Origin: Euhalothece natronophila Z-M001
GTDB taxonomy: Bacteria > Cyanobacteriota > Cyanobacteriia > Cyanobacteriales > Rubidibacteraceae
DNA: 64,000 nucleotides
NCBI RefSeq assembly: GCF_007904085.1
Contig: NZ_CP042326.1
Location: 1,240,001 to 1,304,000 of the forward strand
Reading direction: 5' to 3'
Shown: positions 20,118 through 34,791 of the stretch, in pieces
Layout: each line of letters opens with the position of its first letter
Position numbering within the stretch: position 1 is the first letter of the stretch
Notes under the pieces: model-generated
Told to the model about the DNA's origin: nothing
Databases searched by the model: none
The model's input: only the letters and a program-made list of their open reading frames with translations
Made by a program: the position numbers and the translations under genes

Positions 20118-20960
20118 TTAAATCGCCCATTTACAGGACAGACGTAATAAAAACCGAAAAGACAAATCAATTAAAAAGCCAATTAAGCCTAGAACAATTA
20201 AACAAGCAAAAATTTCATCAGTATTGAGAACCCTTTGCGCTCGTAAAATTCGCCGTCCTAACCCTTCATCTGCTGCCACCAATTCCGCAACAATCACTAA
20301 GTTCCAAGACGTAGCAATATTAATTCGGAACGTATCAATAATATTAGGAATGACGTAGGGAAAAATTACTTGAAATAAAACTTGCCAACGTTTTCCCCCC
20401 AAGGTGTAAGTCGTTTCAATTAACTCTTTCGGCACAAACTTCACCGCATCCATAATCATCAAAATATTAAAGAAAAGTGTGCCAATAAAAATTAAGAAAA
20501 TTTTGGGCTCTTCCCCAATTCCCAAATAGAGAATGAGTAAAGGAACAAACGCCGAAGCAGGCATATAGCGGACAATGCCAATTAACGGTTCAAATAAAGA
20601 GCGAATACTGGCAAATGTTCCCATGCCAATTCCCAGTGGAACTGAGACCACTGCAGCGAAGAAAAAGCCAACAGCCACTCTGAGAAAACTTGCCACGGTA
20701 TCCTCTATCAAAAAGCCTCTGTCCCATAAGCGGACAAAGGCTTCTCCCACTTCCACAGGACTGGGGAGGAAAACATCTTGTACCCCTCCCCAAGTTGAGG
20801 CAGCCCACCAAATAGAAAAAGGAACTGCCACCGAAATAATCATTAAAGCCCATTGCAAAGAACGAGGAATATCCTCAGCAATGCGCCAAAAAATACTCGG
20901 AGACAGTCCTTGTGATTGCTGTTTTTTTCCTGATGATTGACTGACAGACATATTAGACAT
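20118..20960 (-). CDS. NitT/TauT-family ABC transporter permease (guanidine operon)
   Basis: A 280-residue membrane protein with about six transmembrane helices after a 35-residue cytoplasmic N-terminus. The ATPase-coupling (EAA) loop is recognisable at ETTYTLGGKRWQVLFQVIFP. Its ATG overlaps the last base of the binding-protein stop codon, so the two are translationally linked. Role: transmembrane channel of the importer encoded by this operon. Confidence 0.9.
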   Translation of the reverse strand: MSNMSVSQSSGKKQQSQGLSPSIFWRIAEDIPRSLQWALMIISVAVPFSIWWAASTWGGVQDVFLPSPVEVGEAFVRLWDRGFLIEDTVASFLRVAVGFFFAAVVSVPLGIGMGTFASIRSLFEPLIGIVRYMPASAFVPLLILYLGIGEEPKIFLIFIGTLFFNILMIMDAVKFVPKELIETTYTLGGKRWQVLFQVIFPYVIPNIIDTFRINIATSWNLVIVAELVAADEGLGRRILRAQRVLNTDEIFACLIVLGLIGFLIDLSFRFLLRLSCKWAI

Positions 20961-21979
20961 TATTCATTCTCATCTGCGTAAGTTTGTACAAAACTGTCAT
21001 CAAACAAATCACTTAAATCTGGAACTTCTGGGATAAAGTCAACATCAACCATAAACTCTGCCATCTCTTGGGCGGCATAAGGCATATGAGTCATATCATC
21101 GCCATCGCTGAAGGCTTCTAAATTCTCTTCGATGGTAAAAATGCGTGTTCCATCCTTAAATAGTTCCATTTCCTCCGTGCTGACATTTGCCACCTCAGCC
21201 ATAATTTCATCTGACCGTTCGGGGTTTTCTTCCATAAATTCCAAAATGTCAAACCAAGTATCTACTAAGGCTTGCACCTGATCTGGACGTTCATCCACTA
21301 ACGTTTGGGTGGTCACTAACAAATCAGGAATTGCCCCCGGAAACGCCTCAGAATTAATCAACTCACGACTTCCTTCTCGGTCTAACGCCACTAACCAATA
21401 AGGGGGATAAGACCCAACTGCATCCACTTGCCCCGAAGCAAATGCCGCAGCCCCTGCACCGGTTTCTAAGTCCACAATATTCACATCATCCCGAGACATC
21501 CCCTCTTCTTCTAGGGCTAAAGAAAGGAGAAAATCACTCACAACTCCAACTTCAACGGCAACTTCACGCCCTTCTAACTCAGGAATAGACTCAATTTCTT
21601 CAATGGCAATAATTTTGTCATTTCCTTCCGAGTTGTCATTGACTAAAACCACCACTTCTCCTTCTACCGCATCCGCCGCAAAGGAAACCGTGTCATTTAG
21701 GGTTTGACAGTTAGCATCTAATTGCCCAGCAGCCAAGGCTTCCATAGAAGCAACATAATCATCAAACCATTGCAGTCTGACATTTGCCCCATTTTTTTCA
21801 AATAGCCCTTCTTCTTCGGCAATTGCCCAGGGCCACCATCCCGCCCAATTGCTATAGCCCATGACTATCGGATCACCATTGCCATCATCTGTAATATCCG
21901 TTGCGCCATTACAGCTAACAACCAATAATAAACTGAGACAGAATAAACCAATTTTTGTCAAAATTTTGGGTAGTTGCAT
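20960..21979 (-). CDS. NitT/TauT-family ABC transporter substrate-binding lipoprotein (guanidine operon)
   Basis: A 339-residue secreted lipoprotein. The N-terminal MQLPKILTKIGLFCLSLLL hydrophobic core ends in the lipobox VVSC, with lipid attachment at Cys23. The mature protein is strongly acidic and has the SsuA/TauA-type fold signatures GYSNWAGWWPWAIAEEEGLF and QVDAVGSYPPYW. Start: ATG 21979 is placed correctly after AGGAG, whereas a GTG two codons upstream overlaps the Shine-Dalgarno sequence. It lies 12 bp after the HypB-like gene. Likely ligand: guanidine, by operon context. Confidence 0.9.
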   Translation of the reverse strand: MQLPKILTKIGLFCLSLLLVVSCNGATDITDDGNGDPIVMGYSNWAGWWPWAIAEEEGLFEKNGANVRLQWFDDYVASMEALAAGQLDANCQTLNDTVSFAADAVEGEVVVLVNDNSEGNDKIIAIEEIESIPELEGREVAVEVGVVSDFLLSLALEEEGMSRDDVNIVDLETGAGAAAFASGQVDAVGSYPPYWLVALDREGSRELINSEAFPGAIPDLLVTTQTLVDERPDQVQALVDTWFDILEFMEENPERSDEIMAEVANVSTEEMELFKDGTRIFTIEENLEAFSDGDDMTHMPYAAQEMAEFMVDVDFIPEVPDLSDLFDDSFVQTYADENE

Positions 21980-21991
21980 GATCACTCCTGA

Positions 21992-22678
21992 TTAACTCAC
22001 GATTGCTTTTGATTTAACTTGTTGATTAACCCAATTCAACCAAATATTTAACCCCTCTCCTGTTTTTGCCGAAACGGGAATAATCGTGACATTTGGGTTA
22101 ATTTGACGAACATTATTTTCAATCCGTTGAATATCAATGTCTAAATGGGGGGCTAAATCCATTTTTGTCACCAAAAGACAGTCTGCTTCTTGAAACATCA
22201 CGGGATATTTCAAGGGCTTATCTTCTCCTTCGGTGACACTAAGAAGGGCAACTTTGGCGTGTTCTCCCACTTCAAATTCAGCAGGACACACTAAGTTCCC
22301 CACATTTTCTACCAAGATTAAATCAAAGGTTTCAGGTTGATAATTTTCTTGGAACTGATGCAGTCCCCCTGCAACCATTTCGGCATCGAGATGACAAGAA
22401 CGACCCGTATTAATGGCAATAATGGGAACCCCATATTGTCGTAATCTCTCCGCATCTAATTCCGTGGTCATATCCCCTTCAATGACAGCCACATTTAGAT
22501 GTGAGGAAAGATCAGAAAGGGTTTTTTCTAGTAAAACGGTTTTACCAGCACCTGGGCTACTCATTAAGTTTAAGCAAGTAATTCCCCAAGCATCGAAATG
22601 TTCACGATTATGATCCGCTTCAGTTTGGTTGGCTTGGAGAAGATTAACGCCAAGGGCGGCATCGAAAGTTTGGTGCAT
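21992..22678 (-). CDS. HypB-type nickel GTPase (guanidine hydrolase maturation paralogue)
   Basis: A 228-residue G3E GTPase. The G1 P-loop is [13 protein letters not shown] near residue 40, Walker B/G3 is [12 protein letters not shown] near 125, and the base-recognition motif is TKMDLAP near 170. A cysteine-rich metal site surrounds SCHLDAE and VCPAEF. HypB delivers nickel to hydrogenase, but here it is encoded between a HypA-like chaperone and a ureohydrolase under a guanidine riboswitch. It therefore most likely loads nickel into guanidine hydrolase, as described for Synechocystis GdmH. It lacks an N-terminal CXXC-rich or His-rich nickel store. Confidence 0.9.
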
Positions 22679-22701
22679 TATTTTTTAATCAAAAAATTTA
22701 T

Positions 22702-23073
22702 CTAAAGGTTAGCAAATGATTCCTCAGTTGTATATTCAATGTGATCAATTTTTAACTCTCTTCCCGATCGAATATCCTCCATTGGTGAATGACAAGTGGG
22801 ACAGGCATATTGTTCACCGAATTTAGGGAAATATTCTTGTTGGCAATGGTGACAAAAAGCGACTAAAGGAATATCTTTAATTACCAGTTCTACGCCGTCT
22901 AAAAAGGTGTCTTTGGTTTGAGCTTTAAATGCAAACTGAAGACTGGCAGGTTCAACACAGGTAAATTCTCCAACTTGTAAATAAATTTTCTGAATTTTTG
23001 GTGGAGTCGGTTGAGTGTCCCACCAGTCTTTGACCGTTACAATTAAGGCTTTGGTCATGTCAGTTTCGTGCAT
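22702..23073 (-). CDS. HypA-type nickel chaperone (guanidine hydrolase maturation paralogue)
   Basis: A 123-residue HypA-family metallochaperone. The nickel site of HypA needs the N-terminal Met-His-Glu, which is present as MHETDMTKAL only if translation starts at ATG 23073, so the longer start at 23097 is rejected. A zinc ribbon follows near 75-105 with CHHC and CPTC. It lies 14 bp after the guanidine hydrolase gene and 23 bp before the HypB-like gene. It probably hands nickel to the hydrolase rather than to a hydrogenase; no hydrogenase genes are present here. Confidence 0.9.
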   Translation of the reverse strand: MHETDMTKALIVTVKDWWDTQPTPPKIQKIYLQVGEFTCVEPASLQFAFKAQTKDTFLDGVELVIKDIPLVAFCHHCQQEYFPKFGEQYACPTCHSPMEDIRSGRELKIDHIEYTTEESFANL

Positions 23074-23087
23074 AAGAAATGTCTCGC

Positions 23088-24245
23088 TTACTGCCAATAG
23101 TCTGCGGTTTCTTGGGCTTGTTCGTGAATGTAATTGGGTTTACTTTGGCGAGGAAGTTGCTTTGAGAGAACTAAATGCGCCATAGTATCGCAAATAACTC
23201 GCGTTGCCATTAAAGCAGTCATATCGCTGACATCATAGGGAGGAGAAACTTCCACCACTTCTAAACCGCACACGGGAGCTTTTTGCACAATTTTTCCTAA
23301 TAAATAAAGGGCTTCTCGTGGCAATAAACCACCCGGTTCGGGCCAACCCGTTCCCGGAACAAACCCAGCATCAATACAATCAATATCGAAACTGAGATAA
23401 ACACAATCCGTTCCATCTAAAGCCCGTTCCAAGGCAAACTCTACCGCAGCATCTAGTCCCATTTCTGTAATATCCGTAACCGTGAGAATATTGGTTTCTC
23501 GTTCTCGACAAACTTTGACCCCTTGACGAGGAACTTGCCAACCGCCAATTCCTAACTGCACAAGATTTTTGGCTGGGGCATTTTTAATGTTGGTGGCGTG
23601 AAACCAAGGACAGGTGTGCATCCGTTCATCTAAATCAGTTTCTTGGGTATCCACATGACGATCAAAGTGAATAATCCCCACTTTTTTATCCCCTAAATGC
23701 CGACAGACACCGCGCACAGTAGGAAAACCAATGGAGTGATCTCCTCCTAAAATAATGGGAAAAGCCCCAGAGGAGAAAATATGGGCAACCCCTTTAGAAA
23801 TTTGGTCAAAGGATTTCTCGTTATTCCCCGGAATCGTGAAAACATCGCCAACATCACAGAGGGTGACTTGTTCTCTTAAATCCACTCCCAGTTCAAAGTT
23901 ATAGGGAGTATAAAGGGCGGAAATTTTACGGATACCTTGAGGGCCAAAACGGGTGCCAGGACGGTAGGTCGTCCCAGAATCATGGGGAACACCAACAATG
24001 GCAATGTCATAGTTGCCCACTTGTTTTACATCCTCAATATAGGGGGCTTTGAGAAAGGTATTGATGCCTGCATAGTGGGGGAGTTCGCCTCGGGAAAAGG
24101 TAGAAATACTGCGATCGCGAATAGTGTCTGCTGCCTCTAAGCCATGATCGAGTCCCTGAGATACTTCTTGTTGCCACCCAGTTAACGGTAACTGATTTTC
24201 TTTATCTAGAGCGCGATCGGCTTCGGATTGGTTTTGATCACTCAT
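23088..24245 (-). CDS. gdmH: Ni-dependent guanidine hydrolase (ureohydrolase superfamily, GdmH-type)
   Basis: A 385-residue enzyme of the arginase/agmatinase superfamily. Metal ligands are visible in GGDHSIGFP (~170), HFDRHVDTQ (~193-200) and SFDIDCIDAG (~285). The extra ~70-residue N-terminal segment and the DRHVD (rather than DAHxD) motif match the group represented by Synechocystis Sll1077, shown to hydrolyse guanidine to urea and ammonia with nickel. Two independent contexts support this: a guanidine-I riboswitch upstream, and HypA/HypB-like nickel chaperones downstream. Annotated relatives are often misnamed agmatinase. The Shine-Dalgarno AGGAGG at 24260-24265 lies 14 bp from the ATG, rather far. 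Confidence 0.93.
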   Translation of the reverse strand: MSDQNQSEADRALDKENQLPLTGWQQEVSQGLDHGLEAADTIRDRSISTFSRGELPHYAGINTFLKAPYIEDVKQVGNYDIAIVGVPHDSGTTYRPGTRFGPQGIRKISALYTPYNFELGVDLREQVTLCDVGDVFTIPGNNEKSFDQISKGVAHIFSSGAFPIILGGDHSIGFPTVRGVCRHLGDKKVGIIHFDRHVDTQETDLDERMHTCPWFHATNIKNAPAKNLVQLGIGGWQVPRQGVKVCRERETNILTVTDITEMGLDAAVEFALERALDGTDCVYLSFDIDCIDAGFVPGTGWPEPGGLLPREALYLLGKIVQKAPVCGLEVVEVSPPYDVSDMTALMATRVICDTMAHLVLSKQLPRQSKPNYIHEQAQETADYWQ

Positions 24246-24556: not shown

Positions 24557-25144
24557 TTATGCGAGAAATAGTTTAAGGTAGTGACGAACACTCTCAAACC
24601 CTCGCTGGATATAATCTATATCTTGACGGAGTCTTCCCATTAACATAACCCCTTCCATCATCATGAGAAGTTCCTCTGCTAGGAGAGTCGGATTAACTTC
24701 TGGCTTAAGTTGGTTTCTTCCTTGTTCAAGGACTTGAGCTATAATTGTTTGCCAGCGATTAAAAATATCTTTTAAATGCTCTTGAAAAGATTCATCTTGC
24801 TCTGTTAAATCAACAATAAAATTTCCCAATAAGCAACCAGCACATTCTGGTTGAGAAATTTGCTTTGCTTCAAGGCGGTTAATTATTTCTAAAATTTGCT
24901 CAATCGGTTGATCGCTTTTTGCCAAAGCAGGGTCAATAATATTTGCTTGCAATTTTGACCATTCAAAGTCAATTAGAGCATGACCTAACTCATTTTTCGA
25001 GCTAAAATAATTGTAAAAGCTCCCACTGGAAGTCCCACTAACTGTAAAAAGCTCATTGAGTCCTGTTTTACTTAATCCTTTACGATGAACTGTATCAAGA
25101 ACAGATTCAAGAATATCCTCCCGAGTACGCTTAAGGTTAGCCAT
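24557..25144 (-). CDS. TetR/AcrR-family transcriptional regulator
   Basis: A 195-residue repressor. The helix-turn-helix spans ~8-55 (TREDILESVLDTVHRKGLSK...SGSFYNYFSSKNEL). The ligand domain contains ECAGCLLGNFIVDL, a cysteine pair placed where NemR/YxaF-type TetR proteins have a GCLLGN segment; it might sense electrophiles or oxidants. It is the last gene of a minus-strand set with the flavoprotein and OsmC genes. A perfect palindrome upstream of osmC (27042-27055) is a candidate operator. Confidence 0.9.
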   Translation of the reverse strand: MANLKRTREDILESVLDTVHRKGLSKTGLNELFTVSGTSSGSFYNYFSSKNELGHALIDFEWSKLQANIIDPALAKSDQPIEQILEIINRLEAKQISQPECAGCLLGNFIVDLTEQDESFQEHLKDIFNRWQTIIAQVLEQGRNQLKPEVNPTLLAEELLMMMEGVMLMGRLRQDIDYIQRGFESVRHYLKLFLA

Positions 25145-25248
25145 TAGCTTGCAGAGTTACAGCAGTTCTACAATCTAATTCTTAAGCGTTCTTGAGGTTT
25201 TGTCAATAGTTAGTCGGTTTGATTAAATTAATTATTTCTAGAGAAACC

Positions 25249-26403
25249 CTATAGTTTTGATAACATTTTTTTAAGGTGCTTGAGAGCTGGTGTCACAATA
25301 GCAATAAAATAAGCCTCCCGTAATTTTCTTTCTATTGGGTTGCCATAAATATAAGCTCTTGCTCCGGCATATAGCATGGTAGCATTAGCTGCCCGAAGAG
25401 AGAGTTCAGAACCGAGTAACCGAGTTTCAATCACTTCTCTGAGAAACCAATCTTGTAAATTATCTTGTTGATTCTCTATCTCATCTGCTAAAAAATAAGT
25501 TTTTTTACGTGCTTTCTCTAGCTCTAATTCTAGTTCTTCTACCTGATCATCTAGAAAATAATTCACATGACCTAATTGCTTATTAGAACGTTTCATTAAA
25601 TTAATGCAACTATTGATTAATCCTAGGCCCATTCCCACTTGAGAAAGAATAAACCCAGGTTTAATGCGTGGAATATAATCTTGACAAGGAGCCGCTAAAA
25701 TAAAATCCTTTGGGACGAAAACATCCTTAAAAATACAGCTATATGTTCCGCTACCTTCAAGACCAATAAATTTTGCATTAGCTCGCAAAGATAGATTTTT
25801 AAATTCATCAGAAACGATTGCCATTAGATATTGATCTGAATTAGTAATTTGAGCAACAACAGCAAAGTAATGACCCGGACCCAAATTAGAAACCCAAGGT
25901 AACATTCCGTTGATAACGTACCCTCCAGATTTAGGTTCAGCAGAAAGAGAAATTTTTTCAATATCTGCAAAATGCTTCATTGGGTTGGACAAGCCAGTAC
26001 CCGCTAATTTTTCTCCATTGGCAACTTCCCGTAGTAGAATTTGTTGTAAATTTTGGTTGTTACTATTTTGAATATACCAAGCACAAGCAATTTGACACCA
26101 AGTAATAAATCCTGTGTTTACACATTCTTCAGAGATGGTTTCAATTACTTGAATGGCTTTTTTGATTCCCTGATTACTTCCTCCATATTGAGAGGGAACA
26201 GTTTGACCAAATCCTCCGATTTCACCAATTCGGTGCATAAAGGCTTTTGGATATTCGCCTTTTTGATCAATGTCTTTTACTTTGGGAGCTAATTCTTTTT
26301 TAACAGCAGTCTTTAAATTAGACATTAGCGATTCTGTGATCGATGATTCCTTGTTTGATACTTGAATTCGGTTAGTTAGATAAGGGGGATTATAAGTTTG
26401 CAT
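25249..26403 (-). CDS. Acyl-CoA dehydrogenase-family flavoprotein
   Basis: A 384-residue member of the acyl-CoA dehydrogenase fold. The N-terminal helical domain contains GEIGGFGQTVPSQYGG, the central beta domain has LAGTGLSNP and GGYVINGMLPWVSN, and the C-terminal four-helix domain has LRAANATMLYAGARAYIYGNPIERKLREA. The catalytic-Glu region of classic dehydrogenases (YEGTSEIQ-like) is not apparent, which favours a monooxygenase or other atypical role (SfnB/DszC-like group). Start ATG 26403 follows AAGGAG. It lies between the osmC and TetR genes on the same strand. Confidence 0.82.
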   Translation of the reverse strand: MQTYNPPYLTNRIQVSNKESSITESLMSNLKTAVKKELAPKVKDIDQKGEYPKAFMHRIGEIGGFGQTVPSQYGGSNQGIKKAIQVIETISEECVNTGFITWCQIACAWYIQNSNNQNLQQILLREVANGEKLAGTGLSNPMKHFADIEKISLSAEPKSGGYVINGMLPWVSNLGPGHYFAVVAQITNSDQYLMAIVSDEFKNLSLRANAKFIGLEGSGTYSCIFKDVFVPKDFILAAPCQDYIPRIKPGFILSQVGMGLGLINSCINLMKRSNKQLGHVNYFLDDQVEELELELEKARKKTYFLADEIENQQDNLQDWFLREVIETRLLGSELSLRAANATMLYAGARAYIYGNPIERKLREAYFIAIVTPALKHLKKMLSKL

Positions 26404-26453
26404 GAGAAAATCTCCTTGCTGATTTCGGGTTTATTACCTTGAGTTAATGGAAA

Positions 26454-26505
26454 AGGTGACAAGGATAGAATGAAGGAACAATGATTGATTTTCACCTTGT
26501 CACCT
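26454..26505 (-). terminator. Long inverted repeat between osmC and the flavoprotein gene
   Basis: AGGTGACAAGG (26454-26464) and CCTTGTCACCT (26495-26505) form an 11-bp perfect stem with a 30-nt loop, followed on the minus strand by TTTTCC. It lies 10 bp after the osmC stop. It could be a weak terminator, a processing site or a regulator target. Confidence 0.5.
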
Positions 26506-26514
26506 AGTTTTGGT

Positions 26515-27030
26515 TTAAGCTAATTCAACTTCCATGTTGACTGGATTACGAAGAGTATTAGCAACTGGTGACCAGAAGTTGGAGTGAGCAACGAGATCTT
26601 CTAGTTCTTCTCGACTAACATCACCTTCAAGGTCAACTTTGACACGAATATCTGTGAATCCTAAACGTTTGTCCGATAAGTCACCGATTCCCCAAACACC
26701 TGTAATATCAATGTCTCCTTCAAGTTCTAGGTCTAACTTACTTAAAGTAATGCCTCGCATGACAGCATTGGCATGAATCCCAACAGAAATACAAGAGCCA
26801 AGGGCTGCAAGAACAACTTCAGATGGATTCGGAGCGGTATTTTCTCCTAGTAGTGTAGGTGGTTCATCAATTACATGAGCTGGTAAATCTCGAGCATAGT
26901 TGAGGTTACGGAATTGCCCTTCACAGACAGTCTTGACGCTTAATGTATTAACAACACCAGGATTTTGACGAGATTTTTCTGCTAGTGTTTCTAGACCTTC
27001 TTTACTGATTGGACGTAAGGATGTTTTCAT
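26515..27030 (-). CDS. OsmC-family peroxidase-like protein
   Basis: A 171-residue OsmC/Ohr superfamily protein. The first active-site cysteine is in LAALGSCISVGIHANAVMRGI near residue 93. The second cysteine expected near 30-60 in the Ohr/OsmC pair may be in SVKTVCEGQF. The segment PNPSEVVLAALGSC is the family hallmark. The family reduces organic hydroperoxides with thiols. First gene of the OsmC-flavoprotein-TetR set; a perfect 14-bp palindrome lies 11 bp upstream of its start. Confidence 0.88.
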   Translation of the reverse strand: MKTSLRPISKEGLETLAEKSRQNPGVVNTLSVKTVCEGQFRNLNYARDLPAHVIDEPPTLLGENTAPNPSEVVLAALGSCISVGIHANAVMRGITLSKLDLELEGDIDITGVWGIGDLSDKRLGFTDIRVKVDLEGDVSREELEDLVAHSNFWSPVANTLRNPVNMEVELA

Positions 27031-27111: not shown

Positions 27112-28179
27112 TTATCCAAATCCTTTTTTTAATTTTTCTCCACTAACCAATTCCCAAATTAAAACTTCCCCATGATTGGTTCCAGCTGCCAAATAATTGC
27201 CTTGCTTGTGCCATTGCAAACTGGAAAAGCCACCTGTTTCTATTTTTAGTGTTTTAATCGACTTTTGATCTTGCCATAGAATGATCCTGCCATCATCACT
27301 AGCAGAGGCTAAGATGGGTTGCGAGGGATGAAAACTTAAATCTCTGACAAATCCTTGATGGTTTTCTAAAACAGTATTTTGCCATTGACCACCCTTTTTT
27401 TCTTGCTGCCAAATAATAATTCCCTCAAGGCAAGCGGTGGCAATTTGAGGAAATTGATCTGGGGAAAAATTAGACCAAGCAAGTTTTCGCACTTTCCCTG
27501 GAAATCCTTGCATCAACCACGGGGGCGGATTATCCCACGCTAAGATGCTTAAGGTGCGATCTAAGTTTCCAGAGGCTAAATAATTCCCCTCTTTTGACCA
27601 AGCAACCGTTAAACTTGCCCCCGGTACTTCTAACTGATCAGGTGGGGAGTCAAGATCGTTGAGATTCCAAACTTTAACGCCACCATCGCCACTGACTGCT
27701 AAGTAATCTTGTTTGGGATGCCATGACAGGTCAAAGATAGAAGAGTTTTCAAAGGGAAGAGTGGCGATAATAACGTCTTGTTCTAAATCTAAAATATGAA
27801 CCTCACGCCCCACAGCATAAGCGAGTAGAGACTTTTGAGGATGCCACTGCAGCGTATCTAGCCAAGTGGAAGGATAGTTTCTCTCCCAGATTAAGGTGGG
27901 GGTTTCTCCCTGTAAGTTCCAAATTTCTAAGGTTCCAGCTTGTCCGGCAGTGGCTAGAAAGTTACCTTCGGCGGAAAAACCTAGACAGTTTAAAGCCATT
28001 TCTCCAGCTTGATGCAAAGCCACAGAATGACCATTCAGAGACGAGAGATAGAGTTCTCCTACAGCCGAACAGCTAGCGAGTATTTGTTTTTTTGGCGACC
28101 ACGCGATCGCGCTGATATAGTCTGATAACTGTTCTGTGTGTTTAAGACGGGTTTTTAATTTCACAAGCAATGATGACAT
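27112..28179 (-). CDS. WD40-repeat protein
   Basis: A 355-residue beta-propeller protein with about seven WD40 repeats, for example LASCSAVGELYLSSL, LATAGQAGTLEIWNL, LAVSGDGGVKVWNL, LASGNLDRTLSILAW, LASASDDGRIILWQ and LAAGTNHGEVLIWEL. No signal peptide or membrane segment; likely a cytoplasmic scaffold. The ATG at 28179 is chosen because a TTG at 28197 lies in the stem of a terminator hairpin. It follows cynS by 42 bp with that hairpin between. A role in cyanate metabolism is not indicated by sequence. Confidence 0.85.
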   Translation of the reverse strand: MSSLLVKLKTRLKHTEQLSDYISAIAWSPKKQILASCSAVGELYLSSLNGHSVALHQAGEMALNCLGFSAEGNFLATAGQAGTLEIWNLQGETPTLIWERNYPSTWLDTLQWHPQKSLLAYAVGREVHILDLEQDVIIATLPFENSSIFDLSWHPKQDYLAVSGDGGVKVWNLNDLDSPPDQLEVPGASLTVAWSKEGNYLASGNLDRTLSILAWDNPPPWLMQGFPGKVRKLAWSNFSPDQFPQIATACLEGIIIWQQEKKGGQWQNTVLENHQGFVRDLSFHPSQPILASASDDGRIILWQDQKSIKTLKIETGGFSSLQWHKQGNYLAAGTNHGEVLIWELVSGEKLKKGFG

Positions 28180-28180
28180 C

Positions 28181-28209
28181 AAAAAAATGTCCCCCAAAAG
28201 TAGGGGGAA
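28181..28209 (-). terminator. Rho-independent terminator after cynS
   Basis: On the minus strand CCCCC (28207-28203) pairs with GGGGG (28195-28191) around TACTTTT, followed by ACA and seven T. It lies 15 bp after the cynS stop and ends the cyn operon or attenuates reading into the WD40 gene. Confidence 0.75.
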
Positions 28210-28221
28210 CTTCTTGGATCA

Positions 28222-28665
28222 CTACCACTTCTTATAAGGTAAGAATTTACCGCACATCGTTACCTGAACGCGATCGCCCTTGGGATCTTCCACGCGATCC
28301 ACTTCAATGGAAAAATCAATCGCACTCATAATGCCATCCCCAAATTTTTCATGAATGACATCTTTCACAGGCATTCCGTAAACCTGCATAATTTCATAGA
28401 AACGATAAACTAACGGATCTGTCGGCACTTGCGGATCTAAACTGCCCTTCATTGGGGGAACTGTTAGCGGTTCTGCCATACTTTCGGGTAATCCCAACGC
28501 AGAAACGATTTTTTTCGCTTCTTCCATATCTGCGCTGGCTTGGCGATAGATAACTGAAGCAATCCAAACTTCATCACGACCTACTTTCTTTTCTAAATCT
28601 TCAAATGTAATTCCTTTTTCTTTTTTCGCAGCTAATAGTTTTTCAGTAATTTCAGCGATCGGCAT
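28222..28665 (-). CDS. cynS: Cyanate hydratase (cyanase)
   Basis: A 147-residue enzyme converting cyanate and bicarbonate to ammonia and CO2. The active-site triad of the family is conserved: Arg88 and Glu91 in [12 protein letters not shown] and Ser114 in MSAIDFSI. Their spacing is identical to that of the E. coli enzyme (Arg96, Glu99, Ser122). The N-terminal helical domain and the C-terminal KFLPYKKW end are also typical. It is the last gene of cynA-cynB-cynD-cynS, 56 bp after cynD. Confidence 0.97.
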
Positions 28666-28721: not shown

Positions 28722-29606
28722 TTAAATACGAGATTTTTCCACAGCCCGAGTTTCGCGATAGAGGTGTTGTTCCATCTCCAGCTTGAGGTTGTTGTATTCA
28801 GGATGAGTTTCTACCTCTTCCCGTTTACGAGGACGAGGAAAGGGAATCTCTAAAATTTCATCTACCTTTGCCCCAGGTCCACGGGTCATCATGATAATTT
28901 CATCTGAGAGTAAAAGGGCTTCCTCAATACTATGAGTAACCATAATGACAGTTTTGCGTTGTTGTTCCCAAATCCGTTCAATTTCTTCTTGGAGAAAACC
29001 ACGGGTTAAGGCATCTAACGCTCCAAACGGCTCATCCATTAGCAAAATTTGCGGATTAATCGCTAAAGCTCTGGCAATCCCTACTCGTTGTTGCATTCCT
29101 CCTGATAGCTCATGGGGATGCTTTGTTTCGGCTCCGGTTAACCCAACCAGCTCAATATTTTCTTTCACTACCCGCTTTTGTTGAACTTTCGGCATAGTGG
29201 GATAAACCGTTTCTAGGGCAAAGGCAATGTTCCCTTCTACCGTCATCCAAGGCATGAGGGCATAGTTTTGAAAAACCATGCCGCGATCGGGTCCTGGTCC
29301 TTCTACAAGATAGCCATTCATTAATAGGGCTCCACTGCTAGGAGAGGCTAATCCTGCAATAATGTTGAGTAACGTTGATTTTCCACAACCTGATGGCCCA
29401 ATAATAGAGACAAATTTATTGTGCTTAATATCTAGACTAATTTCGTCCAGGGCCATAAATTCCGAGGAAGTGCGACGTAATAATTTACTCATCCAATCTT
29501 TTTTCCCTGGAAAAACTTTGGTAATGCCTTGCAGAGAAAGTTGGACATCTTCTCCTACCTCAGCGACAGCAGGGGCGGGGTTATTGTTATAAGAAATACT
29601 AGTCAT
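28722..29606 (-). CDS. cynD: Cyanate (NitT/TauT-type) ABC transporter ATPase
   Basis: A 294-residue ATPase with Walker A GPSGCGKST near residue 72, signature LSGGMQQR, Walker B ILLMDEPFGALD and H-loop MVTHSIEEALL. It closely resembles NrtD/CynD. Its ATG overlaps the cynB stop by 4 bp. The assignment to cyanate rather than nitrate or bicarbonate rests on the adjacent cynS. A start further downstream is possible, because the first ~20 residues look non-conserved. Confidence 0.92.
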   Translation of the reverse strand: MTSISYNNNPAPAVAEVGEDVQLSLQGITKVFPGKKDWMSKLLRRTSSEFMALDEISLDIKHNKFVSIIGPSGCGKSTLLNIIAGLASPSSGALLMNGYLVEGPGPDRGMVFQNYALMPWMTVEGNIAFALETVYPTMPKVQQKRVVKENIELVGLTGAETKHPHELSGGMQQRVGIARALAINPQILLMDEPFGALDALTRGFLQEEIERIWEQQRKTVIMVTHSIEEALLLSDEIIMMTRGPGAKVDEILEIPFPRPRKREEVETHPEYNNLKLEMEQHLYRETRAVEKSRI

Positions 29607-30448
29607 GATGATTGTTTTCCAAATGAAACAAATGTCTGCAAAATGCCAAAGAGTTGGTCAAGAATAATGCCAACCATCCCGATGACAATAATGGCTGTGA
29701 TAATGCTGGTAATGCTTAAGTTATTCCATTCATTCCAAACGAAGTAACCTAAACCGGTTCCGCCGACTAACATTTCAGCAGCAACAATCACCAGCCAAGA
29801 AATCCCCATGCTAATGCGTAAACCAGAGACAATACTGGGCGCTGCAGCTGGGAGAATCACTTTAAGAAGCGTTCGCCGTCGAGAAGCCCCAAGAGTTTTG
29901 GTTACATCCAAATAATCTTCACTAACATTGCTAATGCCAAATTTGGTATTAATTAAAGTTGGCCAAATGCTGCTAATCGCAATCACAAAAATGGCAGTTA
30001 ACTCCGAGTCTTGAAGTAATCCTAACCCTAAGGGCAACCAAGCTAGAGGAGAAACAGGCTTGAAAAGTTGTACATAGGGATCAATTGCTTTCGAGGCTAC
30101 TTGCGATAATCCCACTGCAATTCCCACAGGAATAGCAATGAGAGAACCAAGTATAAAGCCAATGGCAACTCGACGTAAACTTACTAATAGATGCCAACCA
30201 ATCCCCTTATCATTAGGGCCAAAATCATAAAAAGGGTCGCTAATCCACTCCCAAAAATCAACTAAAGTTTCACTAGCAGAGGGTATTAATGAGGCAAAGA
30301 GCCCTAAAGCCTCGCCAACCTCCCAAAGTATGAGCAAAGCAGCTAAAGAAGCTAAGAAAGCAAGCAAGGCTTGTATATTTTTATTTTTTAGCCAACTCGC
30401 TTGAGTGGTCGCTTGTGGAGAGTGAGAAAACACTTGCTGTTTTGTCAT
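29603..30448 (-). CDS. cynB: Cyanate (NitT/TauT-type) ABC transporter permease
   Basis: A 281-residue membrane protein with about six transmembrane segments. The EAA coupling loop is DVTKTLGASRRRTLLKVILPAA. The LGLGLLQDSE and GLGYFVWNEWNN segments are those of the NrtB/CynB group. It starts 3 bp after the cynA stop. Together with cynA and cynD it should import cyanate for hydrolysis by CynS. Confidence 0.92.
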   Translation of the reverse strand: MTKQQVFSHSPQATTQASWLKNKNIQALLAFLASLAALLILWEVGEALGLFASLIPSASETLVDFWEWISDPFYDFGPNDKGIGWHLLVSLRRVAIGFILGSLIAIPVGIAVGLSQVASKAIDPYVQLFKPVSPLAWLPLGLGLLQDSELTAIFVIAISSIWPTLINTKFGISNVSEDYLDVTKTLGASRRRTLLKVILPAAAPSIVSGLRISMGISWLVIVAAEMLVGGTGLGYFVWNEWNNLSITSIITAIIVIGMVGIILDQLFGILQTFVSFGKQSS

Positions 30449-30451
30449 GAT

Positions 30452-32071
30452 TTACATCCCATATTCATCAATTTGTCGTCTGACGTAATCTGCTGCTTCA
30501 TCAGGCTCGAACTCATCAAACTTTAAGTTTTCAGTTCGGAACGTCTCCTCTGGGGCATCTTGTCCAATTTCCTCGGCTAATTCTCGGGCAAGATCGGTTA
30601 AGAAAATGTCGTCAGCAATGTCGTCATAATCTGCTCTTTCTTCAGGAAGGAAATCCCAACGTACAAGTTGACTGGTAATCCAATGGGAAAAGCTCTTCCA
30701 AGGATAGGGATCAAAGTCAATCCGCTCGGGAACATCCATTTGATTGCCCTGTCCATCTTCAAATTGACCAGTTAAAACAGATTCAACAACATCAACAGGC
30801 TGATTCAGGTAGCGCCGTTCTGAAATCGCTTCGGCAATTTCGCGACGATTATCTGGGTTACTGGCATAACCACAGCCATCAATAATCGCTTTGTTTAAAG
30901 CTCGGAAGGTATTGGGATTGGCATCAATCCATTCATCGCTAGCAGCAAAGGCGCAGCAAGGATGACCGGGCCACAGGTCTTTGGTTAACATATGGATGAA
31001 TCCTGCTCCTTCATCAACCGCCCGTTGATTGAAGGGGTCAGGCATCAAATAAGCATCAATATCTTCTACTTCTAGGCGTGCTACGCTATCTGGGGGAGGA
31101 ACAACTTGAATAGACACATCTCTGTCAGGATCTAACCCGCCGGTTGCTAAGTAATAGCGCAACAGGAGATTGTGCATTGAATACTCGAAAGGAACCCCAA
31201 TTGAGAATCCTTCAAAGTCTTCTGGACCATTGATTTCCCCCTCATATTTTGAGGCAACAGTAATCGCTTGACCATTAATGTTTTCAATACTGGCTAATTT
31301 AATGGGAAATGCAGATGAACCTAACCCCAGTGTCATGGCAATGGGCATAGGAGCTAACATATGATAAGCATCTAGCTCACCAGCAATGGCTGAATCTCTT
31401 ACCGCTGCCCAACTGGGCATTTTGACAACTTCGGCATCAAATCCATATCTTTCATAAAACCCTAACGGTTCTGACATGATAATGGGCGTGGCACAGGTAA
31501 TGGGAATGAACCCAATTCTTAAATCTGTTTTTTCTAATTCACTAACATCGACTGCGTCAGAGACTTCATCATCAGGACCGGCTTGTTGAGCGCCGTTGCG
31601 TCCACAGTTAGATAAAGTAACTAGGGCTGCCCCAATGGCAACATTACGGAGAAATTGCCGTCTCGTACTGGCACTAATTTTCGTAGCATCACCAAAAAAC
31701 TCGGCGGATTTTGGTCCAAAGGCTGCGGCGAAGGCTTGATCGAATCCTCCTGCTGCTTTACTGAGTTCGTTGCAAAGTCTTTCTCGTTTCGGATCACCTT
31801 TTCCTGCCATTTTTAAGAAAAGGGCTTTCCGCAGTTCAGCACGATTAAGGGTATCGGCAATGTTGAGGGATTCACTTTTGTAAATGCCCATCTTCACCAA
31901 ATCATCAATTAAATCGACGGGTTCTTGGGGCATTGTCTGAAGAAATTTCCAATGATCTTGGGTCATGTGAAAGCCCCCACAGATCATACACATCATGTCT
32001 AAATCCCCTATTTGTCCCCTTTGGGCAGATAGATTATTCCACTTTTGAGACTTGTTTGAGGCAATTGCCAT
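30452..32071 (-). CDS. cynA: Cyanate-binding protein of the NrtA/CmpA family with an N-terminal extension
   Basis: A 539-residue periplasmic binding protein. Residues ~160-480 match the NrtA/CmpA fold (LRIGFIPITCATPIIMSEPLGFYERYGF, IAGELDAYHMLAPMPIAMTLGLG, CAFAASDEW). Unusually, a twin-arginine signal (STRRQFLRN, Arg137-Arg138) with hydrophobic core and lipobox LSNC (Cys156) comes after a 130-residue N-terminal region. That region has a CMIC cysteine pair (28-31) and a helical, charged body. No ATG closer to the signal would give an ordinary start except Met88, so either the extension is real or the start is misplaced. The C-terminus is very acidic. Heads the cyn operon behind an NtcA-type promoter. 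Confidence 0.88.
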   Translation of the reverse strand: MAIASNKSQKWNNLSAQRGQIGDLDMMCMICGGFHMTQDHWKFLQTMPQEPVDLIDDLVKMGIYKSESLNIADTLNRAELRKALFLKMAGKGDPKRERLCNELSKAAGGFDQAFAAAFGPKSAEFFGDATKISASTRRQFLRNVAIGAALVTLSNCGRNGAQQAGPDDEVSDAVDVSELEKTDLRIGFIPITCATPIIMSEPLGFYERYGFDAEVVKMPSWAAVRDSAIAGELDAYHMLAPMPIAMTLGLGSSAFPIKLASIENINGQAITVASKYEGEINGPEDFEGFSIGVPFEYSMHNLLLRYYLATGGLDPDRDVSIQVVPPPDSVARLEVEDIDAYLMPDPFNQRAVDEGAGFIHMLTKDLWPGHPCCAFAASDEWIDANPNTFRALNKAIIDGCGYASNPDNRREIAEAISERRYLNQPVDVVESVLTGQFEDGQGNQMDVPERIDFDPYPWKSFSHWITSQLVRWDFLPEERADYDDIADDIFLTDLARELAEEIGQDAPEETFRTENLKFDEFEPDEAADYVRRQIDEYGM

Positions 32072-32100: not shown

Positions 32101-32171
32101 GTTCAATTAGAACAAATGTTCTATTTTAATTAGAACAAATGCCCCCAAGGAGTATCTGTATCGAACTTTAC
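32101..32171 (-). promoter_or_regulatory. NtcA-activated promoter of the cyn operon, with TAGAAC half-site array
   Basis: GTATCGAACTTTAC at 32158-32171 is an exact NtcA site (GTA-N8-TAC). Reading towards cynA, a -10 candidate TCTAAT (32134-32129) follows after 23 bp, the spacing of NtcA class II promoters. Around and below the -10 are four GAAC/GTTC half-sites at about 32101, 32110, 32119 and 32133. They include the palindrome TAGAACAAATGTTCTA (32108-32123), a possible repressor site. Nitrogen control of cyanate genes by NtcA is known in other cyanobacteria. Confidence 0.75.
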
Positions 32172-33891: not shown

Positions 33892-34791
33892 CTACTGATC
33901 TTGATTAATAAGTTGAGTTACTTCTTCTGGGGACAGTTCAGTGAGTTCAGCAATCTCCTCAATTGTCATTCCCTTACTTAAGAGATTTCGGATCAATCTT
34001 TGTTGCGCGATCGCGATGCCGCGCTGTTCACCACGTTGTTCGCCACGTTGTTCACCACGTTTTTCACCTCGTTGTTCAGCTTCTTGAATGCGTTGGGTAT
34101 AAATCGTTGATAACTGCATGAGAAATTCCCTCTCTTCACTTTCTAAACCTTGTTGCTCTTGCTGTCTTACTTCTAAGATAGCAACCATATTCGCCACAAG
34201 TTCGAGAATCCTATCGCGAAAGGGGTTGGTTTCCGGCAGCCGCTGTAATTCTTCAATCGCCTGCATTTGCACTTTACCGCGACCAAATATCCTTAAGAAT
34301 AAGGTATCGGAAGTGCGAGGGAGTTGGTGAATGGCAACGAGAACCGTTCTCAATCCTTCCCCACAAAAGTAAAAGCCCTCTACCCAGTTTTCTAAGTCAG
34401 GTTCGGCTTTAAAAGCTTCAATCACTGAATCAGAAATGGTCGGCGATAGAATCCATAAAGTGGGCAGTTCTTGTTCCGAGAAGCGGGTTTGTTCTCTTCG
34501 GTAACGCCGTTGCAGGCTTGCTTCTAAATCTAGTAATTTTTTCAAGCACTTCCGCACTTCTTGGGCATTAATGGGATTACGATAGGGTTCAATTACCGCC
34601 GGGGTTAACGCTAATTTCCCCAAGAAACCTAATGCGGTTAAGTTAGCTTTCTTTTCGGGATCAGGGGTGAAAAAGAAATCAATTTCGCGAACTTCGGAAG
34701 CTACTTTAGAATCCACCTCGCTTTTTCCCAAGGAAGAGAGCAATTCTTCGAGAGAATCTTTGCTAAATTGGTCGTGAAGGTTTCGAGTCAA
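33892..34791 (-). CDS. Rpn/PD-(D/E)XK nuclease-type conserved protein
   Basis: A 299-residue protein common in cyanobacteria in many copies, related to the Rpn family of recombination-promoting nucleases. EVREIDFFFTPD (~35-46) holds an acidic pair that could belong to a PD-(D/E)XK core. The C-terminal part is a charged helix carrying a tetrapeptide repeat (RGEQ repeated after RGEK), encoded by a 12-bp tandem repeat near 34025-34075. It ends with a small helix-turn-helix-like segment (SKGMTIEEIAELTELSPEEV). The repeat number may vary. Function in the host is not known. Confidence 0.75.
   Translation of the reverse strand: MTRNLHDQFSKDSLEELLSSLGKSEVDSKVASEVREIDFFFTPDPEKKANLTALGFLGKLALTPAVIEPYRNPINAQEVRKCLKKLLDLEASLQRRYRREQTRFSEQELPTLWILSPTISDSVIEAFKAEPDLENWVEGFYFCGEGLRTVLVAIHQLPRTSDTLFLRIFGRGKVQMQAIEELQRLPETNPFRDRILELVANMVAILEVRQQEQQGLESEEREFLMQLSTIYTQRIQEAEQRGEKRGEQRGEQRGEQRGIAIAQQRLIRNLLSKGMTIEEIAELTELSPEEVTQLINQDQ

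Follow-up and report, generated by a model that had tools for sequence, protein, structure and literature searches.

Cyanate provides nitrogen in poor waters, and the described proteins closest to the cyanate-binding protein CynA are NrtA and CmpA, which serve nitrate and bicarbonate, respectively, and share with CynA the fold, the Pfam family, a Tat-type signal and the kind of operon. Dedicated cytosolic maturation of Tat substrates is known from chaperones of the TorD/DmsD type, and the cyanobacterial protein MncA is reportedly loaded with manganese in the cytosol and then exported in the folded state. According to an excerpt of a study of such transporters (PMC8786288), K269 of NrtA balances the charge of nitrate, and calcium does so in CmpA, which binds its anion via this metal. 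The same excerpt calls the predicted picocyanobacterial cyanate transporters functionally unvalidated so far, and an excerpt of another paper, citing earlier work, reports that the CynABD system of Synechococcus elongatus has high affinity for cyanate and also carries nitrite (PMC6627978). In searches of open-licence papers, no title, abstract or consulted passage described a leader of CynA. Here, we analyzed a stretch of 64,000 nucleotides from Euhalothece natronophila Z-M001 (hereafter the window), in which cynA encodes a protein with a long extension ahead of its Tat signal.

The cyn operon and other genes of the window

The gene cynA (30452..32071, minus strand) is an ORF of 539 aa, which codes for a predicted substrate-binding protein of a cyanate ABC transporter with an N-terminal leader domain. 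It is the first gene in the order cynA-cynB-cynD-cynS, and the adjacent genes encode the permease CynB (29603..30448, minus strand), the ATPase CynD (28722..29606, minus strand) and the cyanase CynS (28222..28665, minus strand). CynB and CynD matched the nitrate-transport models TIGR01183 and TIGR01184, respectively, and CynS matched TIGR00673 and PRK02866, all above the cut-off. The operon content suggests that this protein is the CynA of a cynABDS cyanate system, with binding and transport of cyanate as its predicted functions. A gene for a WD40-repeat protein (27112..28197, minus strand) lies immediately 3′ of cynS.

An in-frame stop codon is located two codons 5′ of the first ATG of cynA, in the window genome as well as in G003, a genome of the same genus. 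Further upstream lies an NtcA-like site (GTAAAGTTCGATAC; 32158..32171, minus strand) with a counterpart in G003 (GTAACATTAAATAC). Such sites were called by the pattern GTA-N8-TAC, which we take to be the NtcA consensus. Three matches to it fall between 32158 and 32382, at most about 310 bp upstream of cynA, and the nearest one is retained in G003; across the whole window, 12 matches were counted vs 6.9 expected.

Several other genes of the window were recorded. The region 24557-27030 downstream of cynS holds TetR, acyl-CoA-dehydrogenase-like and OsmC-like genes; acyl-CoA-dehydrogenase-like genes also precede cynA on plasmids of Acetobacter and Moraxella (L174 and L175), together with an OsmC gene in Acetobacter. 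An NMT1-type ABC transporter (20118-21985) is found in one cluster (20118-24245) with genes for HypB (21992-22678), HypA (22702-23097) and an arginase/agmatinase-family protein (23088-24245), an arrangement presumably similar to the cyanobacterial clusters for nickel-dependent guanidine hydrolase. On the other side of cynA, an ORF of 299 aa (33892-34791) carries near its end a run of RGEQRGEQRGEQRG-type repeats, presumably like those found in Rpn/PD-(D/E)XK transposase-like proteins.

The leader of CynA is a translated and conserved domain

The leader comprises a variable start (residues 1-26; 31994..32071, minus strand) and a domain conserved in the alignments (residues 27-134; 31670..31993, minus strand), in which a Cys/His motif is followed by predicted helices and which the Tat topology would place in the cytosol. 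Compared with genome G003, the dN/dS ratio was 0.046 for residues 27-134 (dS 0.91), 0.057 for the binding domain, 0.066 for the signal plus linker (with dS almost saturated) and 0.123 over the 26 codons of the variable start. The leader and the binding domain are under equally strong purifying selection (0.046 vs 0.057), and this coding constraint leaves next to no doubt that the leader is a translated, conserved domain.

To see how widely the extension occurs, homologues were collected at several depths; no two of their rows are identical, yet some differ very little, and some genomes are represented twice, once from each of two collections. A full-length profile search of 386 cyanobacterial genomes (E 1e-100, at most three candidates per genome scored) returned 29 CynA proteins in 28 genomes, all of which start at profile positions 1-30. 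An earlier note on this DNA had asked for such a comparison and would have given up the extension if it were absent from all orthologues; it is reached by every one of these 29 matches. An extension-only profile found 29 of the 386 genomes, namely the same 28 and G322, where cynA is frameshifted. Among 60 relatives, which gave some match in 48 genomes, the 14 best (at least 60% identity, L001-L014) extend to residue 30 or earlier; the next match begins at residue 97 (L015), and the one after it is ended by a contig edge (L016). A scan of a genome contig collection showed leader and binding domain together in 78 of 78 loci among the best 80 of 103 matches, all cyanobacterial by their titles and one of them frameshifted (L102).

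In the cyanobacteria examined, the leader was found only on CynA, and the window genome has no second copy of it besides cynA at E 10. Two candidates for stand-alone leader ORFs, L133 (a short ORF of G322 from the phylum scan) and L102, were rejected as frameshifted cynA genes, and relatives of both carry intact copies. Searches of Pfam, NCBIfam and PHROGs gave no family match for the leader, with only weak hits of E 0.14-0.16 on short stretches (Pfam and PHROGs); the leader is a conserved domain undescribed in these three collections.

The same note had described the region as charged and helical, with a CMIC pair. This description was incomplete: the region forms a conserved domain, in which a Cys/His motif is followed by helices according to a low-confidence structural model of the leader (mean pLDDT 65). 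The CMIC pair is real and is not a chance occurrence: it corresponds to C28-M-I-C31, with C31 identical in 46 of 46 aligned sequences and C28 in 45. When the leader was searched by fold, the top scores were E 2.2 in Foldseek and Z 4.2 in VIA-align; this search and a comparison with the TorD/DmsD fold, which gave no significant match, used the weak model as the query, and we treated the fold search as no information for that reason.

It had also been proposed that the extension might be an independent upstream product made by internal initiation. Internal Met codons do occur at residues 26, 27, 29, 36, 47, 61 and 88, and M47 and M61 are conserved (43/46 and 46/46, respectively), both within conserved stretches. 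However, position 88, the codon named for such a start, is Met in only 11 of the 46 aligned orthologues, a single ATG stands 5′ of the motif in 9 of 14 orthologues, and dN/dS is low throughout residues 27-134. It is thus extremely improbable that translation starts inside the extension, with the upstream part separate or untranslated. Three cyanobacterial rows (L134-L136) have no ATG before the motif, so that a GTG or TTG start is needed there.

A Cys/His motif in the leader

An alignment of 46 rows, composed of the window CynA and 45 of 63 thinned rows, revealed the motif C28-x2-C31-x3-H35-x4-H40-W41 (residues 28-41; 31949..31990, minus strand). C31, H35 and H40 are identical in all 46 rows, C28 is missing from one row by a gap, and W41 is found in 39. 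A leader alignment of 64 rows gave a similar picture, with C31 and H40 invariant and C28 and H35 conserved in at least 90%. The pattern C-x1-2-C-x2-4-H-x3-6-H fitted 103 of the 111 non-identical cyanobacterial CynA proteins with a Tat motif; one of the other eight is cut by a contig end and seven are complete but have no H35 (L130-L132, L134-L136 and L092). All seven carry an extra Cys two residues before C28, a residue that only two of the rows keeping H35 possess (L010 and L064). Six of the seven (L130-L132 and L134-L136) belong to one family, putatively labelled picocyanobacteria-like.

The exchange of Cys for His is typical of zinc sites. The leader has four conserved Cys/His ligands with a ligand-preserving exchange, and the loss of one ligand together with the gain of another, at least twice, resembles the behavior of a zinc site and points to metal binding. 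No match of CynA to a known zinc-finger or zinc-ribbon family was obtained in Pfam and NCBIfam up to E 1. Judging from the pattern of conservation, the motif probably binds a metal, most likely zinc.

The Tat signal and its cleavage site

The Tat signal with R137-R138 and the lipobox Cys156 occupies residues 135-156 (31604..31669, minus strand), exactly where the earlier note had put the twin arginines and the lipobox cysteine. The NCBIfam Tat signal model TIGR01409 matched residues 136-160 above its cut-off. In the 46 aligned cyanobacterial CynA proteins, R137, R138 and F140 are identical throughout and C156 in 45, and by a simple pattern a lipobox-like site is present in 108 of 111 cyanobacterial CynA. 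CynA thus has the features of a Tat lipoprotein, i.e., twin arginines, a hydrophobic stretch and a lipobox Cys, except that its twin arginines stand at residue 137 and not near the N-terminus. Among cyanobacterial rows that have a Cys pair, the first motif Cys precedes the twin arginines by 107-138 residues. In contrast, NrtA-type relatives have no leader, with 5-17 residues from the first ATG to the twin arginines in the four cyanobacterial genes examined.

As the topology of Tat signals is known, the leader should not cross the membrane. This topology and the cleavage site indicate that the leader is very probably cytosolic and cleaved, and they support the suggestion that the extension is a cytoplasmic domain kept on the protein until export. 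The place of the leader, directly before the invariant RR-x-F and the conserved cleavage site, and its absence from the NrtA-type Tat substrates examined would also fit export control with no transfer of metal, in which a leader stabilized structurally by zinc masks or exposes the Tat signal, restricting exit from the cytosol to CynA that is folded and able to bind its ligand. Such a leader would do within the same protein what Tat proofreading chaperones do as separate proteins. Another conceivable role lies after cleavage, with the leader acting mainly as a free or membrane-held peptide of 155 residues. The conserved cleavage site means that a stable product is possible, but signal peptides are usually degraded, a search of the window genome at E 10 brought up no further copy of the domain, and the leader-only ORFs L133 and L102 are frameshifted cynA genes. 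We consider this role very unlikely.

Three cysteines replace the charged residues of the anion site

The periplasmic binding domain of NrtA/CmpA type (residues 181-539; 30455..31531, minus strand) was recognized from Pfam and from its fold. NMT1_2 (PF13379) matched residues 179-417 with E 3.6e-76, and the predicted model of the domain was closest to NrtA 2g29 (Z 47.4, rmsd 1.7, 357 residues aligned), followed by CmpA 2i4b (Z 44.5). Although domain and fold place CynA in the NrtA/CmpA family, it has Cys at all three positions of the charged residues of the anion site, where the nitrate-type relatives have the equivalents Asp193, Glu372 and Lys373. These are Cys193 (31493..31495, minus strand) and the pair Cys372-Cys373 (30953..30958, minus strand), which aligns with the Glu-Lys pair of NrtA, C373 being matched with the nitrate-binding Lys (K269, a number transferred by alignment). 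By fold, CynA belongs to the NrtA/CmpA family, yet it is neither of the nitrate nor of the bicarbonate type.

To compare this site among relatives, 150 homologous ORFs were mapped on CynA and split by the signature HPCC at residues 370-373, which gave 125 ORFs with the signature, 24 without and one truncated. Because the groups are defined by HPCC, C372-C373 is present in all HPCC rows by definition, and the independent observations are C193 and the leader motif. C193 was found in 124 of the 125 HPCC rows, with a gap in the other, whereas the 24 rows of the second group have Asp (23) or Cys (1) at position 193, E372 in 23 and K373 in all 24. This pattern across the groups suggests that three charged residues became three cysteines together. 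Three chemistries are conceivable for the cysteine site, namely metal coordination, a vicinal disulfide and the capture of cyanate as a thiocarbamate; the calcium of CmpA may serve by analogy as a precedent for a metal in the pocket of CynA.

The leader motif and the cysteine site occur together

A C-x1-2-C pair before the Tat motif was found in 122 of 123 HPCC homologues, and the remaining one is truncated within the motif. Applied to the 11 non-HPCC homologues with an RR motif, the same criterion found no such pair before it, one of the 11 being an ATPase fusion whose RR is probably no signal (L029); the other 13 of the 24 non-HPCC homologues have no RR motif. In a tree of 54 of the 150 rows, in which the non-HPCC rows were flagged for long branches, the HPCC rows form one group (100/100), within which the cyanobacterial (24) and proteobacterial (12) rows are sister groups under midpoint rooting. 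Since the HPCC rows are one clade, the motif and the cysteine site were most simply acquired together, once, and then kept, and their co-occurrence counts as one ancestral association and not as many independent events.

The proteobacterial relatives were sampled from plasmid records only. Thirteen of 22 CynA-like plasmid records (H76-H97) were fetched, 12 of them proteobacterial and one cyanobacterial, and the other nine (H81, H83-H88, H91 and H94) come from genera already represented. The proteobacterial binding domains are 41-58% identical to that of CynA, and cynS is annotated alongside in five fetched relatives (L167, L168, L172, L173 and L174). Like CynA, proteobacterial CynA proteins (e.g., L167, L168 and L173) have HPCC, C193 and a Tat signal. 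All 12 proteobacterial HPCC relatives have C193, and in all 12 the twin arginines are preceded, at a distance of 34-59 residues, by a C-x1-2-C pair. As a background, the remainder of the plasmid homologues, divided into overlapping windows of 60 residues with HPCC masked, gave the pair in 12 of 1448. The proteobacterial proteins differ from the cyanobacterial proteins in that the helical part of about 70 residues between the motif and the twin arginines is absent and a site of signal-peptidase I type, as judged by eye, takes the place of the lipobox. When the cyanobacterial and proteobacterial leader profiles were compared, 11 columns round the motif aligned with a probability of 49 and E 1.7e-4 for this single comparison. 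The annotated start lies downstream of the motif in 3 of the 10 annotated proteobacterial records (L170, L174 and L180; L169 and L176 carry no annotation). As the annotated cynA starts of these three lie 3′ of an in-frame Cys motif, gene callers may trim the leader.

These comparisons bear on the export-control reading, which alone leaves the co-occurrence with the cysteine change unexplained, as it does the CobW and HupE neighbors described below; moreover, proteobacteria keep the motif but not the helical part. We regard export control with no metal transfer as unlikely.

Four of the HPCC relatives, from Bradyrhizobium and Bosea (L170, L180, L181 and L182), have molybdopterin-dependent oxidoreductase, carbon-nitrogen hydrolase or aldoxime dehydratase-like genes as neighbors and no cynS annotated in the stretch shown, and their substrate is perhaps different.

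Metal-related genes and a PAS kinase near cynA

The 28 genomes with cynA hold 20 genes similar to the CobW query, of which six lie within 5 kb of cynA (G003, G048, G197, G374, G289 and G323) vs 0.06 expected, a test in which related genomes were counted as independent (G197/G374 and G289/G323 are close) and the 5-kb limit was set post hoc. The gene order in G003 is cynABDS, a HupE/UreJ family protein, CobW and WD40; CobW and WD40 genes form a pair next to the cyn genes in G003, L040/L041 and L190/L191, and L045 has a solitary CynA gene with one for a CobW GTPase 103 bp behind it and then one for a WD40 protein. Of 52 cynS loci that offer 1 kb or more of downstream sequence, 13 show a HupE/UreJ gene at a distance of 145-603 bp past cynS, a count which, like those for CobW and the PAS kinase, refers to tblastn matches in loci of unequal length. 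Most cyn loci examined have neither CobW nor HupE/UreJ nearby, and the window genome has both genes elsewhere and none beside cyn.

An excerpt of a paper on COG0523 proteins links a subfamily that clusters with WD40 genes to zinc limitation (PMC2770081). The CobW-WD40 pair beside several cyn clusters is likewise comparable to the COG0523 subfamily 5 chaperones next to WD40 genes in that excerpt (PMC2770081), a likeness of context and not a homologue of the leader, with presumed subfamily membership and in a minority of cyn loci.

A PAS histidine kinase, usually together with an AraC-type response regulator, was found near cynA in L058 (3403-5667) and 49 more of the 78 loci from the best 80 of 103 matches, and also in L171. 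Its PAS part is 49-52% identical to the PAS of proteobacterial regulators divergent from cynA (L167, L168, L172 and L173), and this likeness suggests that the cyn-linked kinase may be a cyanate-responsive sensor. The leader might also be imagined as a regulatory domain that signals to the cyn-linked PAS kinase or PAS sigma-54 regulator, to PII, to the transporter or to the cyanase; the frequent linkage of kinase and response regulator to cynA and the PAS similarity would agree with this, as would the extra CynA copies that adjoin the kinase in several Leptolyngbya-type loci. However, 9 of the 16 leader-bearing genomes checked (G000, G003, G012, G020, G047, G015, G250, G323 and G398) retain the leader with no kinase match at E 1e-60, and the conserved cleavage site would part the leader from the binding protein. 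A regulatory role of the leader is quite unlikely in our estimation.

The PAS kinase as an obligatory partner of the leader was dismissed on the count of those nine genomes. The sole kinase matches of G024 and G048 (E about 1e-60 to 1e-62, 34-46% identical) score far under the cyn-linked kinase.

Some CynA-like genes with a leader stand alone (L045, L069, L072, L077, L095 and L108) or are extra copies (L033, L047, L053, L058, L059, L062 and L105), and, at the applied thresholds, they have no cynB, cynD or cynS matches to go with them. Five of them that were placed in the tree form one clade, and they are possibly sensors or serve another substrate.

Discussion

The best explanation of these data, which we put forward tentatively, is that a cytosolic Tat leader holding a metal, probably zinc, helps to set the cysteine site of CynA before export, the loading role being a working hypothesis. 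CynA would be made with a long, cleavable Tat leader, of which residues 1-134 would stay in the cytosol during folding. There, C28, C31, H35 and H40 would bind the metal, and the leader would help to set or check the site formed by C193, C372 and C373, either by passing on the metal or by maintaining the thiols in a reduced state, ready for use. The folded CynA would then be exported by Tat, and the leader, cut off at C156, would remain on the inner side. A chaperone-like segment, another of the earlier suggestions for the extension, is possible, and maturation of metal or thiols in cis would be a specific form of it.

A further-reaching version holds that CynA captures cyanate by a metal-thiolate or reactive-thiol site, C193-C372-C373, assembled with the help of the leader as a built-in metallochaperone that is discarded after Tat export; we rate this version as unlikely. 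By analogy with TorD/DmsD- and MncA-type maturation, which is likewise completed in the cytosol, the supposed maturation part of CynA would lie in cis on the leader, with a predicted metal.

If a metal-type cytosolic leader is indeed tied to a three-cysteine ligand site, this would explain why CynA is exported folded, and the link between leader and cysteines would offer a direct test of what holds cyanate. As a maturation factor in cis, the leader would be a simple means of coupling metal or thiol loading to Tat export.
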